Assembly (NCBI GenBank): GCA_950295325.1
Contig: OX485806.1
Location: 35,156,001-35,220,000 of the forward strand
DNA: 64,000 nucleotides
DNA from: Polytrichum commune
Taxonomy: Eukaryota > Streptophyta > Polytrichopsida > Polytrichales > Polytrichaceae
Direction of reading: 5' to 3'
The notes beneath the pieces were generated by a model. It searched no databases. It was not told the DNA's origin and worked only from the letters and a program-made list of their open reading frames with translations. Shown here piece after piece: positions 9,249 to 30,361 of the stretch (positions within the stretch are counted from its first letter, which is position 1; the number at the start of each line of letters is the position of its first letter). Position numbers and translations under genes: made by a program.

Positions 9249-9260
9249 TGTCTTGATCAA
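9249..9260. repeat. target-site duplication, 3' side of LINE
   Basis: The 12-mer TGTCTTGATCAA is identical to 23843-23854. It abuts the (TAA)n run that forms the 3' tail of the minus-strand element. A perfect 12-bp match exactly at both predicted ends is the expected footprint of target-primed reverse transcription. Confidence 0.85.
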
Positions 9261-9478
9261 TAATAATAATAATAACAACTTCGGTCTCCGAAGGAGATCG
9301 ACGTGAATTAAGTGTCTGTTCGATCTACCTTCAATCCCAAGCCCACAGGACAGAGGTATGAAGGAGAAGATCTACTCCCCCCTTTCGAGAGTAGACACTT
9401 TAGACACAAGAAACCATTAATGTAAACTATGCCTAATATAATACCCCTTGCCCCTTACCCTAACTTTTAAGTTATGAG
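9261..9478 (-). other. LINE 3' UTR with hairpin and (TTA)n tail
   Basis: About 218 nt follow the restored-frame stop of ORF2. Near the extreme 3' end a hairpin with an 8-bp stem (CGGTCTCC, loop GAA, GGAGATCG on the plus strand, 9281-9299, one G-T pair) lies next to the TAA/TTA repeats at 9261-9275. A second possible stem pairs 'atctact' with 'agtagac' at about 9369-9397. Stem-loops followed by short 3' repeats are known recognition elements for LINE reverse transcriptases; that role here is inference. Confidence 0.6.
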
Positions 9479-10154
9479 TTATGGGGGGTCTGGATTTTGG
9501 GGGAGTGGTTGGTGGTTTTCAATTCTCCTTTTATGGAGGAGAATAGACATAGCATATTGTATTGCAATGGTGTTAATATTTTTGAAAGTATTTTTGATGG
9601 TGGCCATAGGTATTTTGAAGTTGGTCTCTAGTGCTTTCATAGATGGGATGTGGGCAGTCGCTCTGGCACCAGCAGTGATGACAATAAGTGGTTCGATTTT
9701 CCATCCTTTGGAAGCAATGCTAGCAATTAGTGGGCTGTATTTGTTATTTTTTGCTTCAATTGTTTCTGGGGAGAATCTGTCATTGCAGTATGTGAATTCA
9801 ATTTAATTGTATGGTAAGGTTAGGGTCGACATCGCTGGGAGGGGCATTTTGATAGGGGAGTCCTTTAACACAAAGGATATCAGGTCTAAATCTTGCGTTG
9901 CAGTGACATCTTTGTGTACTACATGTGCAGGGGAGTAGCCAATTGGGGACTGTGTTTTCTTGGGGGTTGTTATTGAAGGTGCCAGCATTCATGAGAGTAA
10001 AGCATCGGGATTTTTCTGATGAGATTAGGAGCTTCCTAATTTCTCCGACTACTTTGTTATGTCTTTTAACTCTAAGTGAGTGTATATGTTGGTGTTTACA
10101 TGTAAGTAATACATGTATCCATGTATCTGGTTCATTTGAGTTGCATATGGGGCA
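9479..10154 (-). pseudogene. CCHC knuckle and R2-like restriction-type endonuclease domain
   Basis: A CPIC-x9-H-x4-C knuckle (10098-10154) is followed by an LRVKRHNKVV segment, a second Cys cluster (CTC...CHC) and RFRPDIL with the RPD aspartate at 9879-9881. The frame then breaks at about 9803, where one extra T in the plus strand shifts it. In the next frame the domain continues as IEFTYCNDRFSPETIEAKNN, then KYSPL, ending at TAA 9479-9481. The order knuckle, RH(N/D), RPD, E/D-rich strand, K..KY is that of the restriction-like endonuclease of R2-type LINEs. An antisense open frame at 9474-9806 on the plus strand is just its shadow. The Cys cluster before RPD is conserved in the second copy at 58.2-58.9 kb. 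Confidence 0.82.
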
Positions 10155-10499
10155 CGTGATAGTGGGAAATCTTTGGTGGCCAAAAAACATTTGTTTTCTC
10201 GCATTACCCATGTAGGTTCCTGTGCGGAATTTGATGAGGCATGATTTTTGTTTGTCGGTGATAGCGGGATTTGTCCAGAATTCGTTCGACAACTCGTTGT
10301 CTATATCTATGTTTTCTGTCCATTTACAGGTGTTGGGGGTTTGTGTGGCCATAATTGCTAGGTTCGTTTCCCTATCATATTTTTTAATTTGTTTTTCTAA
10401 GAATCTAACTGGGCCTTTGTCCGGAACGTCTTCCATCGAGGCCCATACGTCTTTTTGGTAATAGTAAGGGGTGGCGTGGGCATGTTCGTATGGGTGGGC

Positions 10500-10943
10500 G
10501 GCAATTCTGTGCTCTAATTCTAATCCTTCTTTTGCTAGTTTGTTTGCTTTTTCATTGCCGTCAATGTTGACATGTGCTCTAACTTTGTATAGTGTAATTG
10601 GTTGTATCATTTTTTGAAGAATTTTTACCATGGAGGCTAGTGTGGTTTGGTCTGGGTGACTATTATGAAGTGTGGGGTGTTTAATTTGAGTGTTAAGTAG
10701 GTATAATACATTTAGACTGTCTGTGAATATGAATGCGGGTTCGTTGGGATATTGTGTGTTGATGATGCTTAGTGTTTCGTGTATAGCAATCATTTATGCT
10801 CGTAATATGTTTTGATGTCCATGTAATCTATTGGCGATGTTTAGCCCTTTGGGGCTGTAGATACCGTATCCAGCTCTTTCTCTTCTCCATTCCCCAGGGG
10901 TTAAATCTGTGGGTTTCATAAAGGAGCCATCAGTGTAGTAGCT
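10500..10943 (-). pseudogene. LINE RNase H domain, catalytic sites damaged
   Basis: Motifs of RNase HI are in order: YYTDGSF (first Asp, about 10929-10934), LRA-stop-MIAIHE (second acidic position), FIFTDSLNVLYLL (third Asp) and KVRAHVNIDGNEKANKLAKE. In functional enzymes the second motif carries a Glu exactly where this copy has TAA at 10794-10796, and the last motif reads GNExAD where this copy has Asn (10542-10544). Two of the four metal-binding acidic residues are therefore lost, one by a nonsense and one by a D-to-N change. RNase H is found in I, Dualen and some plant L1 elements. Confidence 0.88.
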
Positions 10944-11633
10944 AAATTGGGGGTGGAATTTTAGTGGTCGGTTCATTTGGTAGTTTGGGAGTTGTGGGGT
11001 GAGGGTGTTATTGTTTGGGGGTATCTTTGGGTAGTTTGATTTAGACAATTTTTTACTAGAATTTACTATGATGTTTGAAGGGGTGGGTGGTGCAATTTGG
11101 GTGTGGCTTTGTAATATGTGGAGATTGTCTGCTATGTCCTTTAGTAATTTCATTTGTTCATAGGTGCCTATGTTATTGTTTTGGTGGTGGATACAAAATA
11201 TTTGTAGGGTAGACGGTTCTTTTCTTGTAATATTGAGTTCGGGGGGTATTGTGGGTTCTTCATATGCAATCGTATCGGCTGCAAAGTGGGCAATGATGTG
11301 TGTGTCCAGGAATGGACCTATGTGTGGGTTTGGATTTTTGTACCAGTCAGTATCCGGAGATATAAGTATAGTGATTGTATATGGATCATTTTGGGCCGCC
11401 ATGCGAGCCCAGTGAATGGCTTGTTGTAAGTCTGTTGCGTTGTGGGGGTGAGCGTATCCTATTTCTTGCCATTTGTGGTCAAATGTTTTCCCTAAGGATC
11501 CAAATATTATGTCACGCGAGAATGGCGAGTAGAATTGGGTGAGTTGCGTGGGGCATGTCACTGGGGATGAGAAGTATGACTGGTTGATATTGAATGTGGT
11601 TATTAGGAGATCTAATATTGGGGTTGGTATTGT

Positions 11634-13109
11634 CTATTGGGCACGTTTGAGTGGATCATTTTTCGGGATTCGGTATTTGTATCTTTGATATAACCAAACC
11701 ATTTCGGTTTCAAAAGATTGGGTGGGCGGTTCTAGACCATGTGTGGTATTTTTTGCCAATTGGTATTGTTTCCATAACCACATTAGTCTGGTTTTCGGGA
11801 TGGTGATGAGGTGCCTACCATTATCTTCGTATATGTGAGCGATGTCAAATTGTATTTGGATAGTATCGGAGTTGGTTTCGATGTCATATTCTGGGTTACA
11901 TTCATTAATAGAGATATGTGCTAGTGGGATTATTGTGGTAGGTATGACATATCTCGTGTCTCTTTGTTGTTCGGTGGAGAAGTAGGCATTAATAATGTTT
12001 GAGAAGTGTTTGTGTTGTCTTTCCGTGTAGTAGTGGGTAAGTAGGATGGTGTTGTGGTTGCATGTGGTGGCATCACAATAGGGGTATAGGTCCCTTGGAG
12101 TTTGCCATTTGTTGTATGTGTGGTTATTTGTTGTAGTCCATTGACATAGGTATGACGTGACTGTTCTTTTTATTCCGTTATGGTTGGCAGATTGTTTTTG
12201 TTTGTGATCAAGTATTTTGTATATAGGATATTGTCGGGGGTCCTTAAGTATATTGTTGGGGGGAGGGGGTAGAGGGGGGATGAGAGGGTTTGGGGGGTGT
12301 ATGGGGGGAGTCGGTAGGTGAGGTAGAATGTTGTGGTGTCTTAGTATATATTTGTCTTTGAGGGATCTGGGTGGATGGTGTCGTTGGCATGGTAGGAGGC
12401 ATTCGAGATTACATAGAGGTTGGCAAAATAATTGATTAGCGATGTTTAGGGCACTTTGGATGAGTTTGGAAGGGGTGGAGTGGTAGATTTTGAATTCATC
12501 TAGGTTCATTAGTGTGGTGCCATTAGGCATGGTGATTTGGTCTAGTGTTGTTATATTATGTATGAGCAATTTGTGTAATAGTTTAAGTGAGGTGGTAGAA
12601 TTTAGACCCTGTAGCATTTGTGCTTCTTGCATCCACGCGTTTTCGAGTGGGGATGAGTGTAGGAGGAAGTTGTTTATTGTACTTTTAAGGTGGACTCCGG
12701 CTTCATGCTTGAGCAGAAATAATGTTCTAGTGATAGGTGATCTAACACAGTGGTGGTATTTAATACGGGTAATTTCTTTGGAACCTCCGTATTTGGCAAG
12801 TATAAATTGCGTTAGGCCGGTATAAATTTTGTCAATTCGGCCTTTATCGTTAAGGGCGTTTTGTAGTTGCTCTTCAATGCACCGTAGGTAGGCATTTTGT
12901 AGTGAAAATGCTTCAATTCCAAATAGGTTGTGGGGAAGTTGTGTAGTAATATTAGATGTGCATTTGGGTATTCCGCATATTGTTTTATGGAGTGCGATGA
13001 TTTTTTTGTTATGTTTTTTTATGGCTGGTATGAAGTATGGTACTGCATAAAAGCTATATGCTATTCCAGCGCGTATGACTGTATCAGCCATGTTGATTTT
13101 TTGTTTCAT
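11634..13109 (-). pseudogene. LINE ORF2 thumb/connection region
   Basis: A 491-residue open stretch between the RT palm and RNase H, continuous in frame with both sides through TAA 13173 and TAG 11634. The N-terminal part (INMADTVIRAGIAYSFYAVP, then a QNAYLRCIEEQLQNALND helix) resembles the thumb/linker of LINE reverse transcriptases. A Pro/His-rich insert near 12230-12380 is probably a flexible linker. No independent catalytic domain was recognised in the C-terminal half. Confidence 0.75.
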
Positions 13110-13172
13110 AGTAGCTGGGCATGCTACGAGGGCTTGACATTGTTTGAGTACTTTAGCTGTAGTGGTATTTAT

Positions 13173-14163
13173 TTATGTTTTCCACTTGAGTGATGGTGCA
13201 AGATTTATTCCTAGGTATGTGTAGGATTCATGTTGGTTTAGGACTGGTATAGGTTGGTTTCTATAGTTTATGTTGGTGGATTGGATTAGGGCCTTGAAGG
13301 TTGTGGGGTTAAGTTTAGATTTGTTTGGGCATCCAGTTACTACGCATTTTGGTATTCCTAGGTCCATTCTTGCCCATTCGCAGAATTTGTCTAGTTTATT
13401 TAATTGTATTTGTAGTGTCTCTAGTTTATTAGCGATTGCTGCAAGGTCGTCTGCTTATGCTGCTGATGAGATTTTAACTCTGGACGTACCGAAAGTATAT
13501 CCATTGTTTCCTTGTTGTAGCCATCTAAGTAGGAGTTCTAGAAATATGATGAATAAGTATGGGCTAAGGGTATCGCCTTGTATTGTACCTCTTTGGATGT
13601 GGATTGGTAAGGTTTTTCCGAAGTGTTCGCCAGTGAATATGATTGAAAATTGTGAGTATATGTTTCCTATGAGGTTTATTGAGTCATTGGGGTAACCCAA
13701 GTCTTTCATTATGGCTAAGAGTCTGGCGTGGTCAATGGAGCCAAAGGCGTTTTTGAAGTCAATGTAAAGAATGTATATATCTTGGTTTGTGAGTCTTGCG
13801 TCTTCAAGCGCTGCAATTAGTATTTGGATTTGTCTGGAGGTGTTTTTTTCTGCTCTGAACCATTCTTGGCTATCGTGTAGGATTTGGTATCTTTCTCTGT
13901 ATGCTGATAAGATAGAGGTTAGTGTACTTGTGTAAAGTTTATATATGGTGTTAGCTAGTGCAATAGGTCTGTGATTTGTTAGTTGTGATGGGTTACCTTT
14001 TTTATATAATAAAACTTTTAGGCTAATTTTCCATGATGCGGGAATTTGTTTTTGTTTATAGCAGTGCTTAAAAAATAGGAAAAGTAATTGCTGAAAGTGC
14101 CGAGGCATATTTTTTAGAATTGAGTTGGGAATCTTGTCTGGGCCTGGGCTTTGTTATTACTTA
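13173..14163 (-). pseudogene. LINE reverse transcriptase palm and fingers
   Basis: Recognised RT blocks in order: SPGPDKIPNSILK (just downstream of a one-base deletion at about 14150), PASWKISLKVLLYKKGN, NHRPIALANTIYKLYT, the palm A motif YIDFKNAFGSIDH, the B motif QRGTIQGDTLSPYLF, the C box and the YTYLGINL block. In the C box the residue before ADD is a TAA stop (13455-13457); family members carry Tyr or Phe there. Another TAA at 13173 lies just after SLKWKT. The upstream region (14163-14860) is the RT N-terminal extension, readable with a frameshift in the T-run 14470-14477 and a TAA at 14357. Confidence 0.92.
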
Positions 14164-15105
14164 GGTTTTTAAGACAGAAGTCGTAGGTTTCTTGATCAAA
14201 GTATGTGTGTAAGGGGATTTGGGATTCTCCTCGTTTGTCAATTGTGTATCTTTCTAAGTCGTGCCATGGGTATTGTCTGACTTCACATGTGCAGTATAGT
14301 AGGTGTGTATTTTGATGGTGGCATGTGGGGACTGTTGGGCGGTTACTGATAGATTGTTACGCGTAAATTTCTGATGCAATGTCTTCAGGGTTAGTTAGTA
14401 TATTATTTTGTCTATCAATGATGGAGTCAAGAGGTGAGGTTTCAGTGTTTTTGAAGATTTTACGGTTTATTTTTTTTGGCTTTTTTCATACATTTGGCGG
14501 TATTTTGATACGGCTTTTAGAATGCAGTCTTTGGTGTATTTTGTGGTGATTTTCCTGGCTTCTTTATTTGCAGTTTTTGCGATGACTGCTATGGTGTCAA
14601 TCCATTCAGCAGGAGATGTTGTTATAGAGGGTGGGTGCGGGATGTTGACGTGTTGGTGATTTCGGATATCATTTAGAATGGGGTGCGCTTGCCAGTGTGG
14701 GTCATGTTGTGCTATGTATATGATTTTTCTGATGAGGTGATATGTGTTGAGGTGTCTTTTCCATTCTCTAGCTAGTTTGCATGGTAGAAAACCACCTTGG
14801 TGTGATGTTCTGTTTGTAAGGCTGGGTAATGGGTCTGCTTTGCAGGTTTTTTCAATTGTTTATGAGATTTTGTTTATAATATAATCCAATGATGTACAGG
14901 CTTCTTGCCATTGATCAGATATTAAGTGTTGGTGATTTTCTAGTAGTGTGGTAAGTGCTTTTAGTTGTATAGTGTTTTCTTCAAAGAATGTTCTGTTGAA
15001 TTTTTCTAGGTTTTCTGGTGGTATCGGGTTCAGTATTCTAGTTGGTAAGGTGTTTGTAGGGGATGGGGGTCTGGCTATAAGTGTGTTGTGCGGAATGTGT
15101 AATAT

Positions 15106-15855
15106 GACTGGATAATGGTCTGAATTTAGATTCATGTTTGTGTTTGTAGTGGAGATGAATTTGCTGTTGTCTGGGGAGTGAATGTAGAAGCCATCTATTA
15201 GGCTAGTTGATGTGTAGTTATAGCCTCATTGTCTGGAAAGACTAGTGTTGGTTGGAATATATTCAAGGTTGAGGGATGTAGTGAAGTTTTTCCATTGAAA
15301 GTCTTCTTCTTGTGGGGGGGTGTTAGTGTTGTTATTTTGTCTACCCCTAAGTGCAATGTCTCGGTTAAAGTCACCGCATAATGTGTATGTATGATTATTG
15401 TGTATAGTGATTTGGTTGGTGATTTCGTTCTTAAGGTGTGGGATGAGACATGTGTCTTCTAAGTGTGTAGGCATGTACATGTGTATGATTAGCCAAGGTA
15501 TTTGTGGATGGTTATTTATTTTTATTATTTGTAGGTACGGTGAGATGTTTGCTGGTGTTGGAATTTTGGTGATATTTCCAGAGAATGCATATTTATTGTG
15601 GATAAGTGTGAGTAGACCGCCTCTTCCAGGGGTGTAGGGCATTCTTTGTTGAATGCACCTTGTGAGTGCATGTGTGTTGTTAAAGATGAGTTTGTATTCT
15701 GGGAATAGATTTTGTATATATTTTGTAGATTTGTTTGCAGTAAGTTTGGTTTCTTAAATATGTATGATTGTTGTGTTGTTTAGAAAGTTATTTATTAGGC
15801 TTTGTAAGTTTGGTAATGACGTGTTGAGTGATGACGCATTCCATGTTATTATGTT
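15106..15855 (-). pseudogene. LINE APE-type endonuclease domain
   Basis: The AP-endonuclease-like fold is shown by ITWNASSL at its N-terminus, IIHI-stop-ETKL (the Gln of the conserved QET motif replaced by TAA at 15754-15756; the Glu remains), GRGGLLTL, WLIIHMYMPT, LCGDFNRDI, SLIDGFYIHS and NSDHYPVIL. All expected metal- and DNA-binding motifs are therefore present apart from two stops (15754 TAA, 15226 TGA after SRQ). This domain nicks target DNA to prime reverse transcription in L1-type elements; here it coexists with a second, C-terminal endonuclease. Confidence 0.92.
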
Positions 15856-16503
15856 TGTTTTGTGTTCGGTGTTGGTGTTGATTCTTGTGATTGGTGTGGG
15901 AGCGGCTGGGAGTGGAGGTGGGTGTGAGTATTCGTTAATGTTTTCTAGACATCTGAGTGCTTCGGTTATCAATTGGTTTGGGAGGAAAGGAAATTCTTTC
16001 TTGAGGGTGATTGATGTGGGTGTGGTTACTTGGTTGTGGATGAATTCGTATATTTTTATGTGTATTGAGTTCTGAGGAAGTATTATATTTTGATTGTTTT
16101 CTATAAATATTGTGTAGGGGTGTGGTGTCAGTATGTGTCGTTCGGGGGGGTTGGTGAGGTTAGCTAATCTAATGATTAATGTGTTGGTCCATATGTTATT
16201 AAAGTGGTAGGTTTGGGGTTGGGCTAGTATGTTATTGCATGTGTCTATTGAGGGGTGGATGGTAATGATTAGAGCGTATAGCATATGGGTTGGTGGTAAT
16301 TGGCTTTGTATTTGGATATATTGGTATAGATGTGGGTATGTATTGATTGCCTGGGGGTGTAGTGGGTGTGTGTGTTTTAGTATGGAGGCGAATGTATTTG
16401 CTATGTATTGGTATTCAGGTTGTAATTTTATAGTATTAGGAATAAAATATGTGTTGGCTCTTTTTTTGTGTGTAGCAGGGTGTGTACGTAAGATATCAGG
16501 CAT

Positions 16504-16548
16504 TGGTCCAGGGTTGAGTTCGATGTCCCCGCATTGTAGTAGATCTAG
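16504..16548 (-). other. 2A ribosome-skipping peptide in LINE ORF
   Basis: The residues LDLLQCGDIELNPGP precede MPDILRTH in the main ORF2 frame. This matches the full D(V/I)ExNPG-P consensus and the usual LL-x-x-G context upstream. In 2A peptides the ribosome fails to form the last Gly-Pro bond and continues, giving two proteins from one frame. Here it would separate the Lys/His/Pro-rich repeat protein from the APE-RT-RNase H-RLE polyprotein. 2A-like sequences are known in some animal and trypanosome non-LTR retrotransposons, usually near the ORF N-terminus, so the placement makes sense. Activity is not proven by sequence alone. Confidence 0.9.
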
Positions 16549-16559
16549 TTTATTAATGA

Positions 16560-19500
16560 AGTAGTATCCGTAGAATTGAAGTGTTTTTGGTTTCCTCATA
16601 TTTATTTTTAGATATATCATAAGTGTGAATTTGGTTGTGGTGAAGAGGTTGGGCATAGCGGGTATGATTTTTTCTACTAGTGTGGGTGAGAAGTGTGACG
16701 TTGTATTATTTGTAGGTATTGAGTTTGTTACTGAGTTAGGTTTCCATTTGTTTATAAGGTGGTATGTGACGTTGTTTGTATGGCGAGGCCGATAGGCCGA
16801 GGCCGTTTTGTTTATTGGGTAGGAATTATATTTTGAGTAATGGTAGTTGTGTTTTTGGTGGGGTTTGTATTTAGGGTGTGTGTGGTGATTTGAGTGGGGG
16901 TGGGGTGTGGGGTTAGGATGCAAGTTGTTTGTAAGATGAAGCTTGTGAGATTTTGAGTTAGATTGGGTTTCTTGTTTTGGATGAGAACTATACATTGGTT
17001 GGTATTTGTGTTTTGAATATATTTTGGTTTTTGGATGAAGTTTGTGTTTTAGATGGACTCTATAATTTGGATGGAGCTTTCCCCGTGGATGGAGATTGTG
17101 CTTTGGGTGAGGACTATATCTTGGATGAGACTTGTATGGGTGGAGCCGGGGTATTTTTTGTTTTGAGTAGGTATCGTGTTGTAGGGCGGGTGTTATATTT
17201 CCTAATTGGTTGGGTAAAGGGCGTGTTTTGTTTGTATTTAGGTTTTTCATGCATACGGTTTTAGTTGTGGTGATCGGGTTGGGTAGGGTGTGTGTAATGT
17301 TGCTTGGTAGTTTAGGTGTGAGGGGGGGGGGGGGGGGGGTTAATTTTTGGTTGTGTTTTTTGTTTTGGATGTAGACTATGTTTTGGGTGTGGTTTAGATT
17401 TAGGATGAAGTCCATTTCTTGGTGAGTACTTATATTGTGATAGAAGCCGGTGTATTTTGAGTTTTGGATGAGAGGTAAAATTTGGGTGTGTAGTGTATTT
17501 TGTTCGGGGATTATATTTTGGGTAGTTGTTAGTTAGTTTTGTTGTAGAAGAAATGTGGTGTAGGGCGGGTATTATGTTTTCTTGTTGTTTGGGTAGGGGG
17601 TGTGAGTTCGCGTAGTATTTGGGTGTTTGATCTGTCATTAAGGTAGGTTTCCAATTAGTAAGGTGGTATTTGCGGTTAGTTTTGTGGCGAGGCTGGTAGG
17701 CCGAGGCCATTTTGTTTGTTGGGCATTGTTTGTATTTTAAGTGGGGGTTGGGTTGTGAGTGGGGGTAAAGTATGGGTTTTGGGTGGAGTTTGTGTTTAGT
17801 ATGTAATTTATTTTGTTGGTATATCTTTAGGTTAGGATAGGTTCCTTGTTCATGGTGTGGGTTATGTTTTGAATGCGATATGTGTTTTGAGTAATTTACG
17901 TACTTTGGATGAAATTTGTGTCTTGGATGAAAGTAGTTCGTTGGATTTGGTATATGTTTTGGGTACTTTCCGAATTTCGGGGTGTGTGTAATGTTACTTG
18001 ATTGTTTCGATGTGAGGGGGGGATTTAGTTTTGGGTGTGTTTTGTGTTTTGGATGTAGACTATGCGGTTTGGATATAGGGTGAAGTTCGTTTCTTGGGAA
18101 GTTCCTATATTGTGAGTGAAGCCAGTGTATTTTGTGTTTTGGATGAGAGATATAATTTGGATGTGTGGTGTATTTTGTTCGGAGAGTATGTTTTGGGTGG
18201 TTGTTGTTGTGTGGGTGGTTAGTGTAGTTTGGTTTATTTATATTTGATGTACTTGAGGTAGAGGGGTAGTATCTGTATAGGTTAATTGTTTTGGGTTTTA
18301 GGTATTTAATGAGTGCTAGTTTTGTTGTAGAAGAAATGTGATGTAGGGCGGGTATTGTGTTTTCTTGTTGTTTGGTTAAGGGGTGTGAGTTCGCATAGTA
18401 TAAATTAGGTATTTGATTTGTTATTGGGGTAGGTTCCCAATTAGTGAGGTGGTATTTTCGGTTGGTTTTGTGGCGCGGCCGGTAGGCCAAGGTCATTTTG
18501 TTTGTTGAGTATTGTTTGTACTTTGAGTGGGGGTTGGGTTGTGAGTGGGGGTAGGGTATGGGTTTTGGGTGGGGTTTGTGTTTAGGATGTAATTTATTTT
18601 GTTGGTATGTCTTTACGTTAGGATAGGTTCTTTGTTTATGGTGTGGATTATGTTTTGGATGGGATATGTGTTTTGAGTAAAGTATGTGCTTTGGGTGAGG
18701 TCCGTGTCTTGGATGAATGTAGTTTGTTGGATGTAGTAAGTGTTTTGGGAACTTTCCATATTTCCGGGTGTGTGTAATGTTACTTGAATGTTTAGGTGTG
18801 AGGGGGGGATTTAGTTTTGGGTGTGGTTTTTGTTTTGGTTGTAGACTATGTTTTAGATGCGGTTTGGATTTAGGATGAGGTCCATTTCTTGGGAAGTACC
18901 TATATTGAGAGAGAAGCCGGTGTATTTTGTGTTTTGGGTGGGAAGTATAATTTGGTTGTGTAGTGTGTTTTGTTCGGAGAGTGTGTTTTGGGTGATTGTT
19001 GTTGTGTGTGTGGTTAGTGTAATTTGGGTTATTTGTAAGTTTTTTTATTTATACTTGATGTACTTGAGGTAATGGGGTAGTATCTATATAGGTTATTTGT
19101 TTTTGGTTTTGTCATTTTTGATTTATGATTTTTAATGCGTGCTTGTTTTGTTGTAGGAAGAGTGTGGTGTAGGCGCGGGTAGATCACTCCATTGTCAAGT
19201 TGAACATCACGTGAGACCAAAAAAAATCTTCTTTTGGTAAGTTGCACCACCAAAATGGGTCAAAATTTTATCAATTTTTTTTCATGAGTAGATATACACA
19301 GTACCTATGACATAGTCAAAAGTGGTAACTAAATTTGATGATTTGTTTTTTTCATAAAACATACCATTTCTAACTAGAATGACACAAAATTGAACTAAAA
19401 CAATTACTAAAATAAATAAAGATGACTATAAATTTTCAAAAAGTATACAAAAGATACTATCAATGGTTATGTATATGTAGAAAAAATATCATAAATTTTA

Positions 19501-20388
19501 AAATTATATATGGCATGTAATATAGGGGTAGCAAACTTTGTCCGCACGTGGTGTCAACTTGACAATGAAGTGACCTCCCCGTGGGTGTAGGGCGGGTATT
19601 ATGCTTTCTTGTTGTTTGAGTAAGGGGTGTGAGATTGCATAGTATTTAGGTATTTGATTTGTTATTGGGGTAGGTTTCCAAGTAATGAGGTGGTATTTGT
19701 GGTTAGTTTTGTGGCGAGGCCGGTAGGCCGAGGCCATTTTGTTTTTTGGGTATTGTTTGTACTTTGAGTGGGGGTTGGGTTTTGAGTGGAGATAAAGTTT
19801 AGGTTTTGGGTGTGCGTTGTGTTTAGGATGAAGTTTATTTTGTTGGTTTGTCTTTAGGTTAGGATGGGTTCCTTGCTCATTTAGCGGGTTATGTTTTGGA
19901 TGAGATATGTGTTTTGAGTAAAGCATGTGTTTCGGATGAAGTCCATGTATTGGATGGGAGTAGTTGGTTGGATGAAGTATGTGTTTTGTGTACTTTCCGT
20001 ACTTCGTATGAAGGTTGTTTGTTGTATGAAGATTGTGCCTAAGATGATAATTATATTTTGGGTGAAGTTGGTGTATTTTACCACTTGGATGTATATTGTA
20101 TTTTATACGGGGTTTGTATTTTGTATGTGATATGTTATATGATTGGTATTTGTAGTTTGGCATGTGTATTGGGTGAGTGGTTTGTTGGGGTATACCGTAT
20201 TGGAGTAGATGTGAGGTATGTTTGTATTCCTCATACGTTGTTTGACATCGTATGTTGCTTTGTATGATATTAAGGTATAGTATGTTTATACTAGTATGTA
20301 TTTGTATTCTACTATATCTATATACTTCTATGTATCTAGGGTAGTATTGTAGTAAATACTTTTGTTTTTCTTGGCGGTTTGTGGTCAC
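16560..20388 (-). pseudogene. hexapeptide-repeat (HPKxxx) linker ORF upstream of 2A
   Basis: Three open stretches (20388-19504, 18496-17312 and the upstream part of 17415-15754) encode highly basic, His/Pro/Lys/Tyr-rich sequence with a loose six-residue period such as HPKHKL HPKTKI YSKHKY, i.e. an 18-bp DNA period. On a larger scale the block beginning MASAYRPRHKTN...YHL and ending ...IPALH..S.TTKL recurs about four times; its 'taggccgagg' landmark lies at 16793, 17697, 18483 and 19724 (904, 786 and 1241 bp, the last including a 410-bp insertion). The last unit leads directly into the 2A. Frames change at the G18 run (17322-17339), at the nested MITE and elsewhere. The first stretch has no ATG near its start: it opens with GTG overlapping the ORF1 TGA. 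Function unknown; low complexity and basic charge suggest nucleic-acid binding. Confidence 0.7.
19174..19583. mobile_element. 410-bp MITE nested in the LINE, 8-bp target duplication
   Basis: Terminal inverted repeats of about 39 bp share the core CATTGTCAAGTTGA and a CACGTG inner end. The outer ends are CGCGGGTAGATCACT on the left and CACGGGGAGGTCACT as the reverse complement of the right. GGTGTAGG flanks both sides (19166-19173 and 19584-19591). Paralogous repeat units of the LINE (for example near 18340) show the uninterrupted target 'gatgtagggcgggta', confirming the insertion. The interior is AT-rich and non-coding. An 8-bp duplication fits the hAT superfamily, although the inverted repeats are long for hAT. 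Confidence 0.85.
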
Positions 20389-23318
20389 TCCACATTTGGT
20401 TGGTCTTTAAGCATGAGGTTTGGGTTTACCAATCCCGTGATTTGTTGCATTCCGGCAAGTGCTAAGGTTAAAGTACCTTGGATGTCTAGCATTTGCTTTT
20501 TTAAATTTTCATTTATTTCATCCGCATATATGTGTGCTTCTCTTACTATATCATTTTTTAACTCCTTCATGTCTTTGTGGAGCTCAAGTTTGAGTTTTTT
20601 GTTACCTTCCTCTATTGCTTCCTTCATGACGGTAAGAACGTCCCCTTTTGTAGCACTTTCCTCCCCTTGAGTTTGGTTTTGAATGGCTTCAATAGTGTTT
20701 ACCAAACACGTATTGGTATCTTCAAATCCAAATTTGATTAGTAATTCCTTGGGGGGTTTGTCAACTCCTTCAATACTCCGGCGGTGTGGGGTAATTTCCA
20801 CATGGTAAGTTCCGATTTTTACCTCTTTCCCTACAAATTTCCTATACACAAAGGGGTTAAGGCATTCCACGTTGGCACTACCGTTATGCCTCAAACCATC
20901 TTGCTTGTGGAACCATATAGAAACAACATTCCTGGTTCCTAGTATTTTGCAAATTTCTAATGAGGTGTCATCAATATTCATCAATATTGGGAGGTTGTAA
21001 AAGGTTAGAATAAGGGCCTCTTTCCTTGCCTTTTGCTCCAATGTGAGAGAGGGGCCGTTCTTCACTTGACCTTCAAGGATTTGGTGGTGGGTAGTAACTT
21101 GGAGAGTTTGGATTTTTTTGGCTTGAAGGGGGGTAGGGGCAACAAGATAGGCATGATTGTTAGTGGTGCTCTTTTGAACTTCAACAATCTCAAAATTGTG
21201 ACCTCTTCTAAAGCTATTTTCTAGGACATCAAGAAAGAGAGCATGAGATGTCAATCCAATCAATGCATCATTTGAGATTTTGGTAGAAAGATTGTTGCTC
21301 CTAGCAATGGAGTGGTATGACTTGCATACCTTGCCAAGGCTTCCACCATTGGAGTGAGGTTCAAGATGAAGGATGAAGGGTCTAAGACCCGTGAGTAGGG
21401 CTACTCCATCTGTTTGGAGGTTAAGGAGGTGAAGTTTAACTATCCTAGCCCACACTCCCTTGACCCCTCCTCTCTTAATACTCATGCATAAAACTGAGAT
21501 AGGTTCAATGAGGTTAGTACCAAGTGGAATATGCATGTCATTTAGCCTTTCTTTAACAAGCTCTTTGATGTGGTTGTGGAATAAGGGGTTGTTAGGGAGC
21601 TGAAAATGAATGGCAATTTGGAAATCTAGCGACATGCGAGAGATGGGGTCAGTTTCAATTTCAGATGGGAGTTGAGTGAGGTTAAGGTGCTGCCCCGGGA
21701 GTCCATCACTTCTCTCATTTGGATACAATATTTGTGGCACTCTTGGGTAGGAAATACTTACGTTTTCAAGTTCCTCGGCTTCCTTACGAGGGATGCCCCT
21801 TGTAATTCTATCAGCAATGGTTTCATCTGAAAACAACTCTTCAATCCCTTGCTCTATGGCAAGGTTTTCCATGGATTCAAAGTCTAACCAAAGCTTGAGT
21901 TTTTGGTTCGGTGAGGGCTCTGTGGCATGGGTCCCAATGCGGGGGGAGGTCACCTGCTGGGTGTTCGAAGGAGGGGACGTTCCGGCCCGGTCCCTGGATC
22001 TCTTCCCGCTGGCTACTGCTCTTGAATTTGCCTTAGCTTTCTCGGCCAGTAGCTTTTTTAGGCTCAGTGATGGGGAGTCTATCTCCATGGTGTCTTCCTC
22101 CTCCCCGAAGACCTTAGCTAGGGCCTTAGGGATCATCTCTCTTCCAGCTCCGATGTTGCTGTCTCGGTGGGAGGCTGCTAAGGCAAATTCAAGAGCAGTA
22201 GTCATCTGGATCTGCACTGTGTTGCGGGGGCGGTAGTAGTTAGTTAGACCTGCAGGGTTAGTTTCATAGGGGATCTGGTGTAGCACTGCACAGTCTTCTT
22301 CAATACGGCTTCTTTTGCTGGGTCGATGATGATAGTTCGGCGATGTAGTTCGGAGGCGGTGTTTGCTGTGTAGACTTGCAGGGTTAGTTTCGAAGGGGAT
22401 CTGGTGTAGCACTGCACAGTCTTCTTCACAGCTCTCTTCAATCCGGCTTCTCTTGCTGGGTCGGTGATGATGGTTTGGCGATGTGGTTCGGAGGCGGTGT
22501 TTGTTATGTAGACCTGTAGGGTTAGTTACGTAGGGGATCTGGTGTAGCGCTGCACATTCTTCCTCACAATTTTCTTTAATCCAGCTTCTCTTGCTGGGTC
22601 GATGTGGATGGTTCGGCGATGTAGTTCGGAGGCGGTGTGAGCCTGCAGGGTTAGTTTCGTAGGGAATCTGATGTAGCGTTGCGCAGTTTTCTTCAATCCG
22701 GCTTCTCTTGCTGGGTCGATGGTGATAATTCAGCGATGTAGTTCGGAGGCGGTGATTGCCATGTGAACCTGCAGGGTTAGTTTCGTAGGGGATCTGATGT
22801 AGCGCTGCGCATTTTTCTTCAATCCGGCTTCTCTTGCTGGGTCGATGGTGATAATTCGACGATGTAGTTCGGAGGCGGTGATTGCTGTGTAGACCTGCAG
22901 GGTTAGTTTCGTAGGGGATCTGGTGTAGCACTTCACAGTCTTTTTCTTCAATCCGGCTTCTCTTGCTGGGTCGGTGATGATAATTCGGCGGTGTAGTTCG
23001 GAGGCGGTGTTTGCTATGAGTTCTTACTGTACCCTTGCCTCTCTGATCTGCTTCTTTAGGGTGAAGTCCGGGTGTGTCTGTGCTCTTAGATGTAGATCTT
23101 TGATGTAGATATGGGCAGTGTTGCTTTGCTGGATCCCCTCCTTTTTTACCGCCACCTCGATCTTCCGCTACGACCCCTTCACTGCTTCGTATGTTGGTGT
23201 TGTATGGTTCTCCTCCACATGTGGCTGAACCCTCCACCTGCAGATCTCCTTTGTGCTGAAGATGTGGTTCTAGACCTAGTTGACATGCATCTATGCTATG
23301 TGTATGAAGCAAGGACAA
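20385..23318 (-). CDS. LINE ORF1 protein, RRM-like domain and C-terminal coiled coil
   Basis: The open frame is uninterrupted for 977 codons, but it opens with TTG and the first in-frame ATG is at 22203-22205, giving a 606-residue Met-initiated protein. After an acidic/Ser-rich N-terminal part, a region near the C-terminus (ALILTFYNLPILMNIDDTSL ... RHNGSANVECLNPFVYRKFV ... TYHVEITPH) has the strand-helix pattern of an RRM fold. The last ~90 residues (DVLTVMKEAIEEGNKKLKLE, HKDMKELKND..., KKQMLDIQG) form a predicted coiled coil. RRM plus coiled coil is the usual make-up of LINE ORF1 RNA chaperones. The intact frame contrasts with the wrecked ORF2. The TGA stop overlaps a GTG opening the next frame. 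Confidence 0.8.
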   Translation of the reverse strand: MSLLHTHSIDACQLGLEPHLQHKGDLQVEGSATCGGEPYNTNIRSSEGVVAEDRGGGKKGGDPAKQHCPYLHQRSTSKSTDTPGLHPKEADQRGKGTVRTHSKHRLRTTPPNYHHRPSKRSRIEEKDCEVLHQIPYETNPAGLHSNHRLRTTSSNYHHRPSKRSRIEEKCAALHQIPYETNPAGSHGNHRLRTTSLNYHHRPSKRSRIEENCATLHQIPYETNPAGSHRLRTTSPNHPHRPSKRSWIKENCEEECAALHQIPYVTNPTGLHNKHRLRTTSPNHHHRPSKRSRIEESCEEDCAVLHQIPFETNPASLHSKHRLRTTSPNYHHRPSKRSRIEEDCAVLHQIPYETNPAGLTNYYRPRNTVQIQMTTALEFALAASHRDSNIGAGREMIPKALAKVFGEEEDTMEIDSPSLSLKKLLAEKAKANSRAVASGKRSRDRAGTSPPSNTQQVTSPRIGTHATEPSPNQKLKLWLDFESMENLAIEQGIEELFSDETIADRITRGIPRKEAEELENVSISYPRVPQILYPNERSDGLPGQHLNLTQLPSEIETDPISRMSLDFQIAIHFQLPNNPLFHNHIKELVKERLNDMHIPLGTNLIEPISVLCMSIKRGGVKGVWARIVKLHLLNLQTDGVALLTGLRPFILHLEPHSNGGSLGKVCKSYHSIARSNNLSTKISNDALIGLTSHALFLDVLENSFRRGHNFEIVEVQKSTTNNHAYLVAPTPLQAKKIQTLQVTTHHQILEGQVKNGPSLTLEQKARKEALILTFYNLPILMNIDDTSLEICKILGTRNVVSIWFHKQDGLRHNGSANVECLNPFVYRKFVGKEVKIGTYHVEITPHRRSIEGVDKPPKELLIKFGFEDTNTCLVNTIEAIQNQTQGEESATKGDVLTVMKEAIEEGNKKLKLELHKDMKELKNDIVREAHIYADEINENLKKQMLDIQGTLTLALAGMQQITGLVNPNLMLKDQPNVE
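22013..22201. repeat. 25-bp perfect inverted repeat at the ORF1 ATG
   Basis: The 25 bp at 22013-22037 are the exact reverse complement of 22177-22201, with a loop of 139 bp. On the minus strand the stem begins three bases after the first in-frame ATG of ORF1 (22205), so the transcript could fold a 25-bp stem over the start of the Met-initiated reading frame. Both arms are coding (TTALEFALA and KAKANSRAV). Confidence 0.8.
22240..23020 (-). repeat. in-frame tandem repeats at the LINE 5' end
   Basis: About six to seven copies of a 126-bp unit. The landmark 'tgcagggtta' or variant lies at 22251, 22377, 22515, 22644, 22770 and 22896: spacings 126, 138, 129, 126 and 126, every one a multiple of three. 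In the ORF1 frame each unit reads roughly HRLRTTSPNYHHRPSKRSRI followed by EE..CAVLHQIPYETNPAG. 5' tandem repeats in LINEs usually act as promoter monomers, yet the length constraint suggests translation. Either role is possible. Confidence 0.85.
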
Positions 23319-23842
23319 TGTAATAACAATGTGTATTAAGAAAAGAAGGAGCCTTCGGCTCCTCCTATGTGATTCTCTGTCTATTCTGAAAAGTGTATTC
23401 CTGGCTCAGTGTGGCGATTTAGAGTATCAGTATATTTGAGTCCTTCGTGCTTGTTTCCTCTCTCCAATGTGATGCGTACAGTTTCAGATCCAGGCAAATA
23501 TCAGTGGCGAAATGTGGTAATCACAACCAAACAAAGCCCCAGCTCTTCAGAGTGCTCTCCCCTTAAGATAACTGACATTTCCACACACCTAAATCACCAG
23601 ATCTAAAACTGAACTTACACAGTACCCCTCAACACTGCCAAGCACCTCTTCAAACACTCTGACCGTCTGGTTCCTAATGGGCGCGGGGTCACTGCAAGGC
23701 CAGCTCCTTAGCAGCACACACATAAGTCTCCAGTGGCTACCTCTTTCGTCGCTCACCTCACCAGGAATTACGGAGCTCTCAGCAGCTCTCTCTCATCTCT
23801 CTAACCGACTCCGTTCGGTCTTAAAAACACCTTTCTAACAGT
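23319..23842 (-). promoter_or_regulatory. LINE 5' UTR with hairpin
   Basis: The element begins ACTGTTAGAAAGGTGTTTTT immediately after the target duplication. The region has no long ORF and presumably holds the internal promoter that LINEs need. A perfect 6-bp-stem hairpin (GGAGCC-TTC-GGCTCC on the plus strand, 23349-23363) sits about 30 bases upstream of the ORF1 open frame. It resembles, in loop sequence, the hairpin at the element's 3' end. Confidence 0.5.
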
Positions 23843-23854
23843 TGTCTTGATCAA
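23843..23854. repeat. target-site duplication, 5' side of LINE
   Basis: TGTCTTGATCAA, identical to 9249-9260, immediately precedes the first base of the minus-strand element. It fixes the 5' end at 23842 and shows that this copy is full length rather than 5'-truncated. Confidence 0.85.
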
Positions 23855-28100: not shown

Positions 28101-28159
28101 GGACTCAAGAAGAGAGTAATTTGGGAGGGGGATTGGTATAGTGCCGTTACTTAGTTGTG

Positions 28160-30149
28160 ATGGCAACTACGTATTACCGGGAGATCGAGCTGACCATTTT
28201 CACGGCGCAAGAGCTGCGGGATGTGCGGATTTTCGGGGGGAAGATGAGTCCGTACGCGATCGCGTGGGTGAACTCGGGGGCGAAAGTGAAGGGCCCCGTG
28301 GACGAGAAGGGCGGGATCGACCCCAAGTGGAACTACAAGTTCCAGTTGTACGCAGAGGAGCGGCAAGTGCACGAGGAGCCCAAGAGCGTGGTGGTGCACA
28401 TCGAGCTCTTTGATGCGGGCGTGCATTGGGGCTCCAAGATCGGCATGCTTTCGTTCGCGTTGGGCGACTTGCCGGAGCGGAAGGGCAAGCCCGTGATGAG
28501 CGAGACCGAAGCCGTGTTCCTAACTCTCCCGGTAAGTCTCAACAACCCCATTCCCGAGTATTCGATTGTGTTCAAATCCATGCTACCTTGGAGTTGTAGG
28601 GTTTTGGATCTTGGGTTTCATCACAAACCTATTAAAATCCGAAGTCCGAAGGCAAAACAGTTCTGCTGAAATGTCCTTTTATGAATGGATACAAGGAGGC
28701 ACAATAACACCCCTAATTGATGACCCTCACTCACGAAATTGTTGGCTATGGCATCTATTGTGTTCAAATTTATAGTGCCTTGGAGTCGCAGGGTTTAAGG
28801 TTTAGGACTTTGGGGTTCATCGTAACCTTTAAGTTTGTGGCATTGACCATCTTGGATCTCGCTGATGTGTCATGTCTTCATTGGACACGAATGTGACGAA
28901 TATAGAGCCTACTAAATAGCCCTCGCGACATGGTTAATGTTACGTCTTATATCGTAAATGTGTCATCCTGCTATGGGTTATAGCAGGGTTCCTTGTGTAC
29001 GTACCTCGTCTTTCCCATGACTTAGAAGGCCCTGCTATAACCCATAGAAAGGTTCCTTGCATACAATATCTAGCATGTAATGAATAGGTGAAATAATTTT
29101 GTTGATGTGTTTTTTTACGATTGGATACAAGGAGGTACAATATCACCTGTAATTGATGGCCCTACCATAGCTTGACCACTACATCCAATAATGGACATGT
29201 GTCCCCCCTGCCATATAGCTACAGTAGGCACCTGATACCCACTTCACTGTAGTGAGGTAGGTTTTGGTTGTGTGCTTAGTTTCCAACAAGAAGAGATCAT
29301 GGTGCTGCTCTCCACCTCACTTACAAAATATCATATAATCTATCATATTGTCCACAAAGTTCTAAAGCTCAGTTTATAACATCGATTACTGCCATGGCGT
29401 TTGTTGTGTGCGTAATTTCCATATAAAAAATAGATTATTGTGTTGTCCACCCGAAGTTTCTTAGGGTAAACCATACATTCAAGCCCATCAACCTCACTTA
29501 AGTTTAAGTTACAATCGGTGTATACTGTTCTAAACGATGTGCATAATCTGTTCCTGATAGAAATTACCTTAGATAATGGTCTAGTGCTGCTGTTTGAAAA
29601 GCCCTTACCTCGCATTATGAATTTGATTGGGCACTAGAACTGAAAACAAGACATAAAGAAAGTCCTCCATTTTCATTTAATATTTTTTGACGTCCCACTA
29701 CAAATGCTTATTTACACAAATATTACTCAATGAAATCTCTCGGTTTTGACCCAAAATGTTGCCCTACACACTTGCTACCATTTGACGTTTTTGGTCAGAT
29801 TCACTTACTTCCAAAGTTATTTCTTGCAACCTATTAAGCTCAGATATTTGATTGACAAACCACCCAATCAGCAACCTGCAAGTAACGAAGCATCGCAAGT
29901 TAATTGTTTCTGGTGGTGGGACTCTTTTTGCAAATATTTACAAAGATTCTTACCTCGTACTTACAATCGCAGGTTCTTAGGCCGTCAGGTCACACACAGG
30001 GCACCCTGAATTTTTCAGTGATGCTCGGAGACATCACTGACACCCCTGTGGCTGTTCAAAGGGCAGAGTCCAACAGTTTCCGGGACTTTGCAATGGGCCG
30101 AACATGTTGTAGTCTTCCTCTACTTAAAGGGGGAGGAGAGTACTCATAA
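28160..30149 (+). CDS. C2-domain protein, SRC2-like, two exons
   Basis: Exon 1 (28160-28531, 124 codons) starts at ATG in 'gtgATGGCAACT' and ends at a GT donor (CCG|gtaagt). Exon 2 (29973-30149) follows an AG acceptor (cgcag|GTTCTT) and ends at TAA; both junctions are phase 0, giving 182 residues. Exon 1 encodes a C2 sandwich: REIELTIFTAQELRDV, then YAIAWVNSG, DPKWNYKFQL, VVVHIELFD and GMLSFALGDL. Exon 2 supplies the final strands, VLRPSGHTQGTLNFSVMLG, characteristic of plant C2 proteins related to SRC2 and BAP. This group binds membranes, often Ca2+-dependently, in stress and defence signalling. Unlike long SRC2 proteins there is no Gly/Pro-rich or membrane tail. Exon 1 is strongly GC-rich at third positions, unlike its surroundings. 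An upstream 3' splice site (28101) hints at a 5' UTR intron. Confidence 0.87.
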
Positions 30150-30317
30150 CCTTCGCTTGAAACTTCCGACCGTCACTACTTATTAAAAAGCATTATACAG
30201 AAATTTTGGCAACAGACTTGAAACGATCACGCAATTATGTAATGGACAATCTGAAAATGTCACAGATTCTTCTGCCATCAACCAAATGAGGCATTGACTA
30301 AAGCCCTAAATCTTCTT

Positions 30318-30361
30318 AAACCCTACCCTACACCCTACACCCTACACCCTAAACCCTAAAC
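30318..30361 (+). repeat. short interstitial telomere-like tract
   Basis: About six units of CCCTA/CCCTACA/CCCTAAA in tandem, ending with two perfect plant-type CCCTAAA units; another 'ccctaaa' lies 30 bp further on and one just upstream at 30304. Such tracts may mark repaired breaks, or may be telo-box-like promoter elements; the degenerate order favours a small relic. Confidence 0.75.

Follow-up and report, generated by a model that had tools for sequence, protein, structure and literature searches.

Why should one retrotransposon keep two unrelated endonucleases? To our knowledge the question is unanswered, and it is raised by a locus on the minus strand of a 64,000-nucleotide stretch of DNA (contig OX485806.1, positions 35,156,001 to 35,220,000; the whole stretch is called the window here). 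What lies there is very probably one full-length but decayed member of a family of long interspersed nuclear elements (LINEs) that is large and was recently active in a plant-like genome, and whose second open reading frame (ORF2) carries both an APE-type endonuclease and an R2-type restriction-like endonuclease (RLE). From 5′ to 3′ the order is ORF1, a stretch rich in HPK, a 2A/StopGo-type motif, APE, reverse transcriptase (RT), a PCIF1-like domain, RNase H, a CCHC finger, RLE, a stem-loop and the tail. The features on which the argument leans are these:

9261–23842, minus strand: whole element, 14,582 bp, bounded by a 12-bp duplication
9249–9260, no strand: target-site duplication TGTCTTGATCAA, 3′ side of the element
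23843–23854, no strand: target-site duplication TGTCTTGATCAA, 5′ side of the element
16504–16530, minus strand: 2A/StopGo-type motif GDIELNPGP
15100–15858, minus strand: APE endonuclease domain by profile and motifs, with two in-frame stops
13203–14191, minus strand: RT, with a frame break near 14130; YADD reads stop-ADD at about 13460–13449
11187–11819, minus strand: PCIF1-like domain between RT and RNase H, by sequence profile and fold
10515–10949, minus strand: RNase H, by Pfam and profile
10098–10154, minus strand: CCHC-type finger CPICNSNEPDTWIHVLLTC
9509–10064, minus strand: R2-type RLE with RHN, RPD, EFT and K..KY, and a frame break near 9803
9281–9301, minus strand: 3′ stem-loop adjoining the tail
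9261–9277, minus strand: (ATT)n tail

The initial annotation, made from the letters alone, had named APE, RT, RNase H, CCHC and RLE motifs and a perfect 12-bp target duplication; all the motifs are present in minus-strand frames of the window, and TGTCTTGATCAA stands on both sides of 9261–23842. The LINE is full-length by its borders, both bounded by the duplication, and its reading frames are not intact: the ORF2 region as joined for searching (16800–9482) has eight in-frame stops and three frame breaks, near 14470, 14130 and 9803. Could the stops be sense codons of an alternative genetic code? This was ruled out, as copy A of the same family has Q, G, E, Q, Y, Q, Y and E at the eight places. 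The joins are borne out by the closest database relatives in the first search, P0001 with 59% identity over the C-terminal half and P0002 with 55% over the N-terminal half: both read through where the window is broken. With Pfam, RVT_1 is matched at 2.3e-18 by the window piece and at 1e-28 by P0002, and RNase_H at 3.8e-5, below cut-off, by the window piece and at 3.1e-15, above it, by the intact P0001.

Are there really two endonucleases? Exo_endo_phos_2 scores 0.027 on the window piece, below the Pfam cut-off, as do the APE families in P0002; the APE motifs QET, GDFN.D and SDH are kept in P0002 and in copies A, E and F, and the domain is also recovered by a profile grown on relatives, which is partly circular. 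Copy F has no APE profile match below 1e-3, yet QET, GDFNRD and SDH are present. The RLE identity is supported by profile and by a fold match to the R2 endonuclease region, the C-terminal comparison to which the annotation had tied its proposal, and the motif residues are kept in copies A, E and F. A profile search covered the window and 45 database proteins, 46 sequences in all, and found both domains at E < 1e-3 in 30. Its profiles started from P0001, P0002 and a small number of further proteins and were extended with members of this set, which makes the E-values of the sequences taken into them circular. As a control there were eight LINE-type proteins in which no RLE was expected: seven (P0004, P0007–P0009, P0043–P0045) gave no RLE match below 1e-3, and P0006 gave 8e-3 at a stretch starting with its finger. 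The annotation's claim of two endonucleases in one LINE is thus upheld by profile, by fold and by the open frames of other copies.

Those frames also bear on the thought that the locus is a composite, with at least two unrelated LINEs nested or fused and the endonucleases coming from different elements. The window copy is indeed split into several frames, and at least one subfamily copy seems to be inserted in the ORF1 of another (L043, contig C6 near 16700942, where a window-subfamily 3′ end runs into an apparent ORF1). However, APE, RT, PCIF1-like domain, RNase H and RLE lie in one open frame of 2,625–2,924 amino acids (aa) in copies A–E, the same open frame appears in both the RT and the PF12237 lists at ten places, and database proteins show the same module order; unless the other copies' open frames are assembly errors they rule a composite out, and we find it scarcely credible. 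In copies A (contig C1), B (C2) and C (C5) a 747-aa ORF1 frame goes with a 2,625-aa ORF2 frame, and the three copies are mutually 99.0–99.1% identical over 10.7–12.0 kb; the frames are of 1,833 and 2,924 aa in copy E and of 1,310 and 2,919 aa in copy F, and are more broken in the others. The genome, 407.8 Mb in 64 contigs of which seven are of 42–78 Mb, gave at least 149 RT matches besides the window at 77–93% identity (best 150 of 1,568 candidates). The small contigs C36 and C24 carry matches that duplicate those of C6 and C3, score for score, and a part of the copies counted may therefore stem from duplication in the assembly.

How did the copies arrive? All 20 window-subfamily 3′ ends fetched (of 40 listed) start with short TTA/ATT-type repeats and then run into unrelated flanks. 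Duplications of 10–13 bp abut the tail in A, B, D, G and J, which makes these elements 11,965–13,794 bp long, the 5′ end of A, D, G and J being set by the duplication match itself. Only duplications abutting the tail were counted, since 12-nt matches also occur at a distance from the element's ends, as an additional one in B and as one of the two in C; the sequences of E and H were cut off at the 3′ side, and the duplication search left out F. The tails are (CTAT)n in A–E, H and I, (TTC)n in G and (ATT)n in J, and the 3′ stem-loop keeps its stem, with different paired letters, in A, E, J and the window. Dispersed flanks, duplications and a repeat tail are the expected traces of target-primed reverse transcription that has no fixed target.

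Selection speaks most directly to whether both cutters matter. The ratio of nonsynonymous to synonymous substitution rates (dN/dS, by Nei-Gojobori) between A and E is 0.57 before the 2A motif (163 codons), 0.14 for 2A plus linker and 0.09 for everything after 2A (2,340 codons); by domain it is 0.07 for APE, 0.05 for RT, 0.10 for PCIF1, 0.05 for RNase H and 0.13 for RLE. Against the more distant F it is 0.84 before 2A, 0.28 in the linker and 0.04–0.13 in the five domains (APE 0.13, RLE 0.12), with dS saturated at 1.3–3.1. Every ORF2 module compared is under strong purifying selection, and replicating copies have therefore needed both endonucleases and the PCIF1-like domain. It might be held that only one endonuclease works while the other is a remnant in the course of being lost, as other LINE groups manage with one and both activities are here predicted from sequence; with such low ratios for each, and the motif residues of each kept in A, E and F, this is distinctly unlikely.

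Several points weigh against so ordered a picture of an active family. The window copy, with its stops and breaks, is dead. The ten copies fetched were chosen for long open frames or high identity; C and I are without a decided duplication (C has two 12-nt candidates, I has AT-rich or distant matches). Between A and B dN/dS is 0.49 after 2A and 1.42 in RT, in a pair too close for a verdict and with very few changes. A single-sequence search of the PDB with the RLE gave no R2 match, three copies read D-I-K-P-NPGP, with K for E, in the 2A motif and copy G lacks that motif, and the endonuclease, RT and other activities are predictions.

What is a PCIF1-like domain doing in a LINE? PCIF1_WW is matched at 1.9e-6 by the window piece, below the Pfam cut-off, and at 1.1e-8, above it, by P0001, and by profile and predicted model the domain matches the PCIF1 methyltransferase fold. 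PF12237 has at least 150 matches above cut-off in the element's own genome (150 scored of 697 candidates) and none in 14 control genomes. The place of the catalytic NPPF is occupied by AHPH at 11442–11453, and the catalytic Asn is absent from all 16 sequences covering the site. Might it nevertheless methylate the element's own capped RNA, as an active enzyme whose motif has changed? The kept fold and the dN/dS of 0.10 would suit that proposal; since NPPF is, in the part of the source at hand, PCIF1's motif (PMC8868631), its loss of the Asn throughout makes it improbable, and most likely the domain reads RNA, perhaps the cap, rather than methylating it. That the domain is a general feature of Dualen elements was considered, since by eye P0003 seemed to have it, and was set aside when profile–profile comparison with five groups of further dual-endonuclease proteins brought up no significant match. 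Just upstream is a further candidate:

12018–12254, minus strand: chromodomain-like stretch, unproven

Chromo is matched there in two of five members, weakly (best E 0.012), with no PDB match by profile; in structure comparison of its model the matches listed were all taken by the PCIF1 part, which leaves room for families that do not appear among them.

The upstream part of the element carries the following:

20388–23405, minus strand: ORF1 open frame, 1006 aa (977 aa counted from TTG)
22435–23018, minus strand: tandem repeat of period 126 bp in the N-terminal part of ORF1
16755–20388, minus strand: low-complexity HPK-rich part upstream of 2A, with 18-nt periodicity and larger diverged repeat units

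The C-terminal part of ORF1 (about 20463–21956) is common to the ORF1 of other copies at 26–38% identity, and no Pfam family was matched by the ORF1s of the window and the other copies. The diverged units at 16755–19938 resemble the stretch directly before 2A, like 5′-region monomers. An open frame at 20406–19507 overlaps the ORF1 end, and the ORF1/ORF2 frames overlap by 22 nt in A–C, 77 nt in E and 88 nt in F. A fixed frameshift from ORF1 to ORF2 was considered and ruled out, the relative frame differing between copies (A and F one way, E the opposite, from positions, by hand). The window motif fits the 2A/StopGo consensus (D/G/C/N)(V/I)ExNPGP, as defined in the part of a 2026 study available (PMC12846837), which reports no evidence for StopGo in plant viruses. 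NPGP is at the expected place in 10 of the 11 copies read and D-I-E-x-NPGP in seven; among 165 database proteins, most not spanning the 2A region, NPGP is found only in P0009, an APE-type LINE protein that has it near the N-terminus at residue 86. The drop in dN/dS at the motif suggests that the working protein starts there.

How might the parts act together? ORF2 would be read from the frame overlapping ORF1, and 2A skipping would free a protein of about 2,340 aa, which with the ORF1 protein would bind the element's RNA. One endonuclease would nick the first strand, and RT would prime there from the RNA 3′ end in target-primed reverse transcription; the second would cut the other strand 10–13 nt away, and RNase H would clear the RNA. 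The PCIF1-like domain, without its catalytic Asn, would read the RNA, perhaps at its cap. In R2 the RLE makes the first nick and in L1 the APE does, so by analogy with the one RLE would nick first here, and by analogy with the other, APE. That a land-plant LINE has all of this, with an enzyme of about 2,340 aa freed by a used 2A, cuts divided between APE and RLE, and a dead cap-methyltransferase fold recognising the element's own 5′ cap, is a possibility about which we are doubtful. If it were so, full-length capped transcripts would be preferred as template through cap recognition, and the 2A motif would show StopGo naturally at work in a plant-like genome; the conserved pseudo-methyltransferase is in any event an unexpected module that hints at recognition of RNA caps during retrotransposition. 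How the two cutters divide the work is open to assay in this family, which is multicopy, has several near-identical long-frame copies and keeps both cutters under strong selection.

Is the host a land plant, as the initial annotation had it? The agreement of telomeres, a C2 gene and contig make-up favours a land-plant-like host, and all of these are indirect signs. Plant-type telomere repeats stand at five of seven contig ends looked at (one other reads N, one is without), and an interstitial telomere-like (CCCTAAA)n repeat lies at 30317–30361. A C2 domain (3.9e-8) is at 28142–28666 in a gene that presumably resembles plant SRC2, and DUF4200 scores 0.0037, below cut-off, in an exon of a CFAP-like gene. 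Seven chromosomes and 408 Mb would be in keeping with a moss, for instance one of the Polytrichaceae. Plant-type telomeres are also found in algae. A green-algal host, in keeping with that and with the listing of RandI/Dualen from green algae in the portions available of two sources (PMC3747384, PMC8226300), is unlikely given 408 Mb in seven large contigs and the plant-like C2 gene.

Where does the RT belong? The tree had 48 RT rows, including three R2 chains and, as plant L1 references, three Hibiscus LINE RTs; its named references did not extend to Dualen, RTE or I. The four rows meant as outgroup did not come out together, P0005 lying elsewhere, and a number of terminal branches are long. 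The window RT and P0002 are sisters (100/99), and with P0037–P0039 they form a clade (100/98) apart from the Hibiscus RTs, so that on the placement set beforehand as a refuting test the window RT is not inside plant L1 as represented by those three. Support for joining this clade to 31 other RTs is 80/59, too low to be firm; both endonucleases were found at E < 1e-3 in the proteins of 26 of the 31, the remaining five lacking a match for one or both. Among the other long RT proteins of the database set, P0016, P0018, P0022, P0024, P0025, P0031, P0032, P0034, P0036, P0038 and P0042 have, by Pfam, SET, Ulp1-type protease, PHD, ZZ or MYND domains. For the C-terminal part at least 120 relatives exist, and those listed derive from ENA, JGI and one further source; a search for P0001 relatives in viral contigs gave four pattern matches, none a relative. 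Among the papers listed from the open-licence literature, no report was found of Dualen or another dual-endonuclease LINE family in land plants or a plant-like genome, of a PCIF1-like module in LINEs, or of a 2A motif in an element with two endonucleases. A survey of adenine methylases in eukaryotes may, reportedly, mention transposon-borne ones.

The dual-endonuclease LINE is itself an already known kind. R2, which has neither APE nor RNase H, inserts into 28S ribosomal DNA, in contrast to the present family, where all 20 fetched flanks differ. With the cap-specific adenosine methyltransferase PCIF1/CAPAM the LINE domain has fold and sequence profile in common, and differs in being part of a LINE protein and in the missing Asn of NPPF. 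P0037, P0038 and P0039 have the same order of APE, RT, PCIF1-like domain, RNase H, finger and RLE, with about 20–23% identity in the PCIF1-like region, and have no NPGP motif; P0038 has an additional sub-cut-off Josephin match. A 2A-like motif in a LINE protein is likewise known, from the portion available of PMC4981915, in non-LTR retrotransposons of trypanosomes and sea urchin, whereas the element described here, with its two endonucleases and its plant-like genome, has the motif inside a long upstream frame. The Dualen/RandI assignment of the initial annotation stands in part. APE and RLE in one element, RNase H and an (ATT)n-type tail characterise that group in the parts available of two sources (PMC4640811, PMC3747384) and are common to this family, in which the A-type subfamily has (CTAT)n as its short-repeat 3′ tail; the branch joining it to other dual-endonuclease proteins is the weak one. 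The comparison took in no named Dualen sequence, so membership rests on architecture, for which the best label appears to be a variant of the Dualen/RandI kind, set apart from it, as far as descriptions go, by a PCIF1-like domain, a 2A motif, a length of 12–14.6 kb and a genome that is plant-like rather than green-algal.
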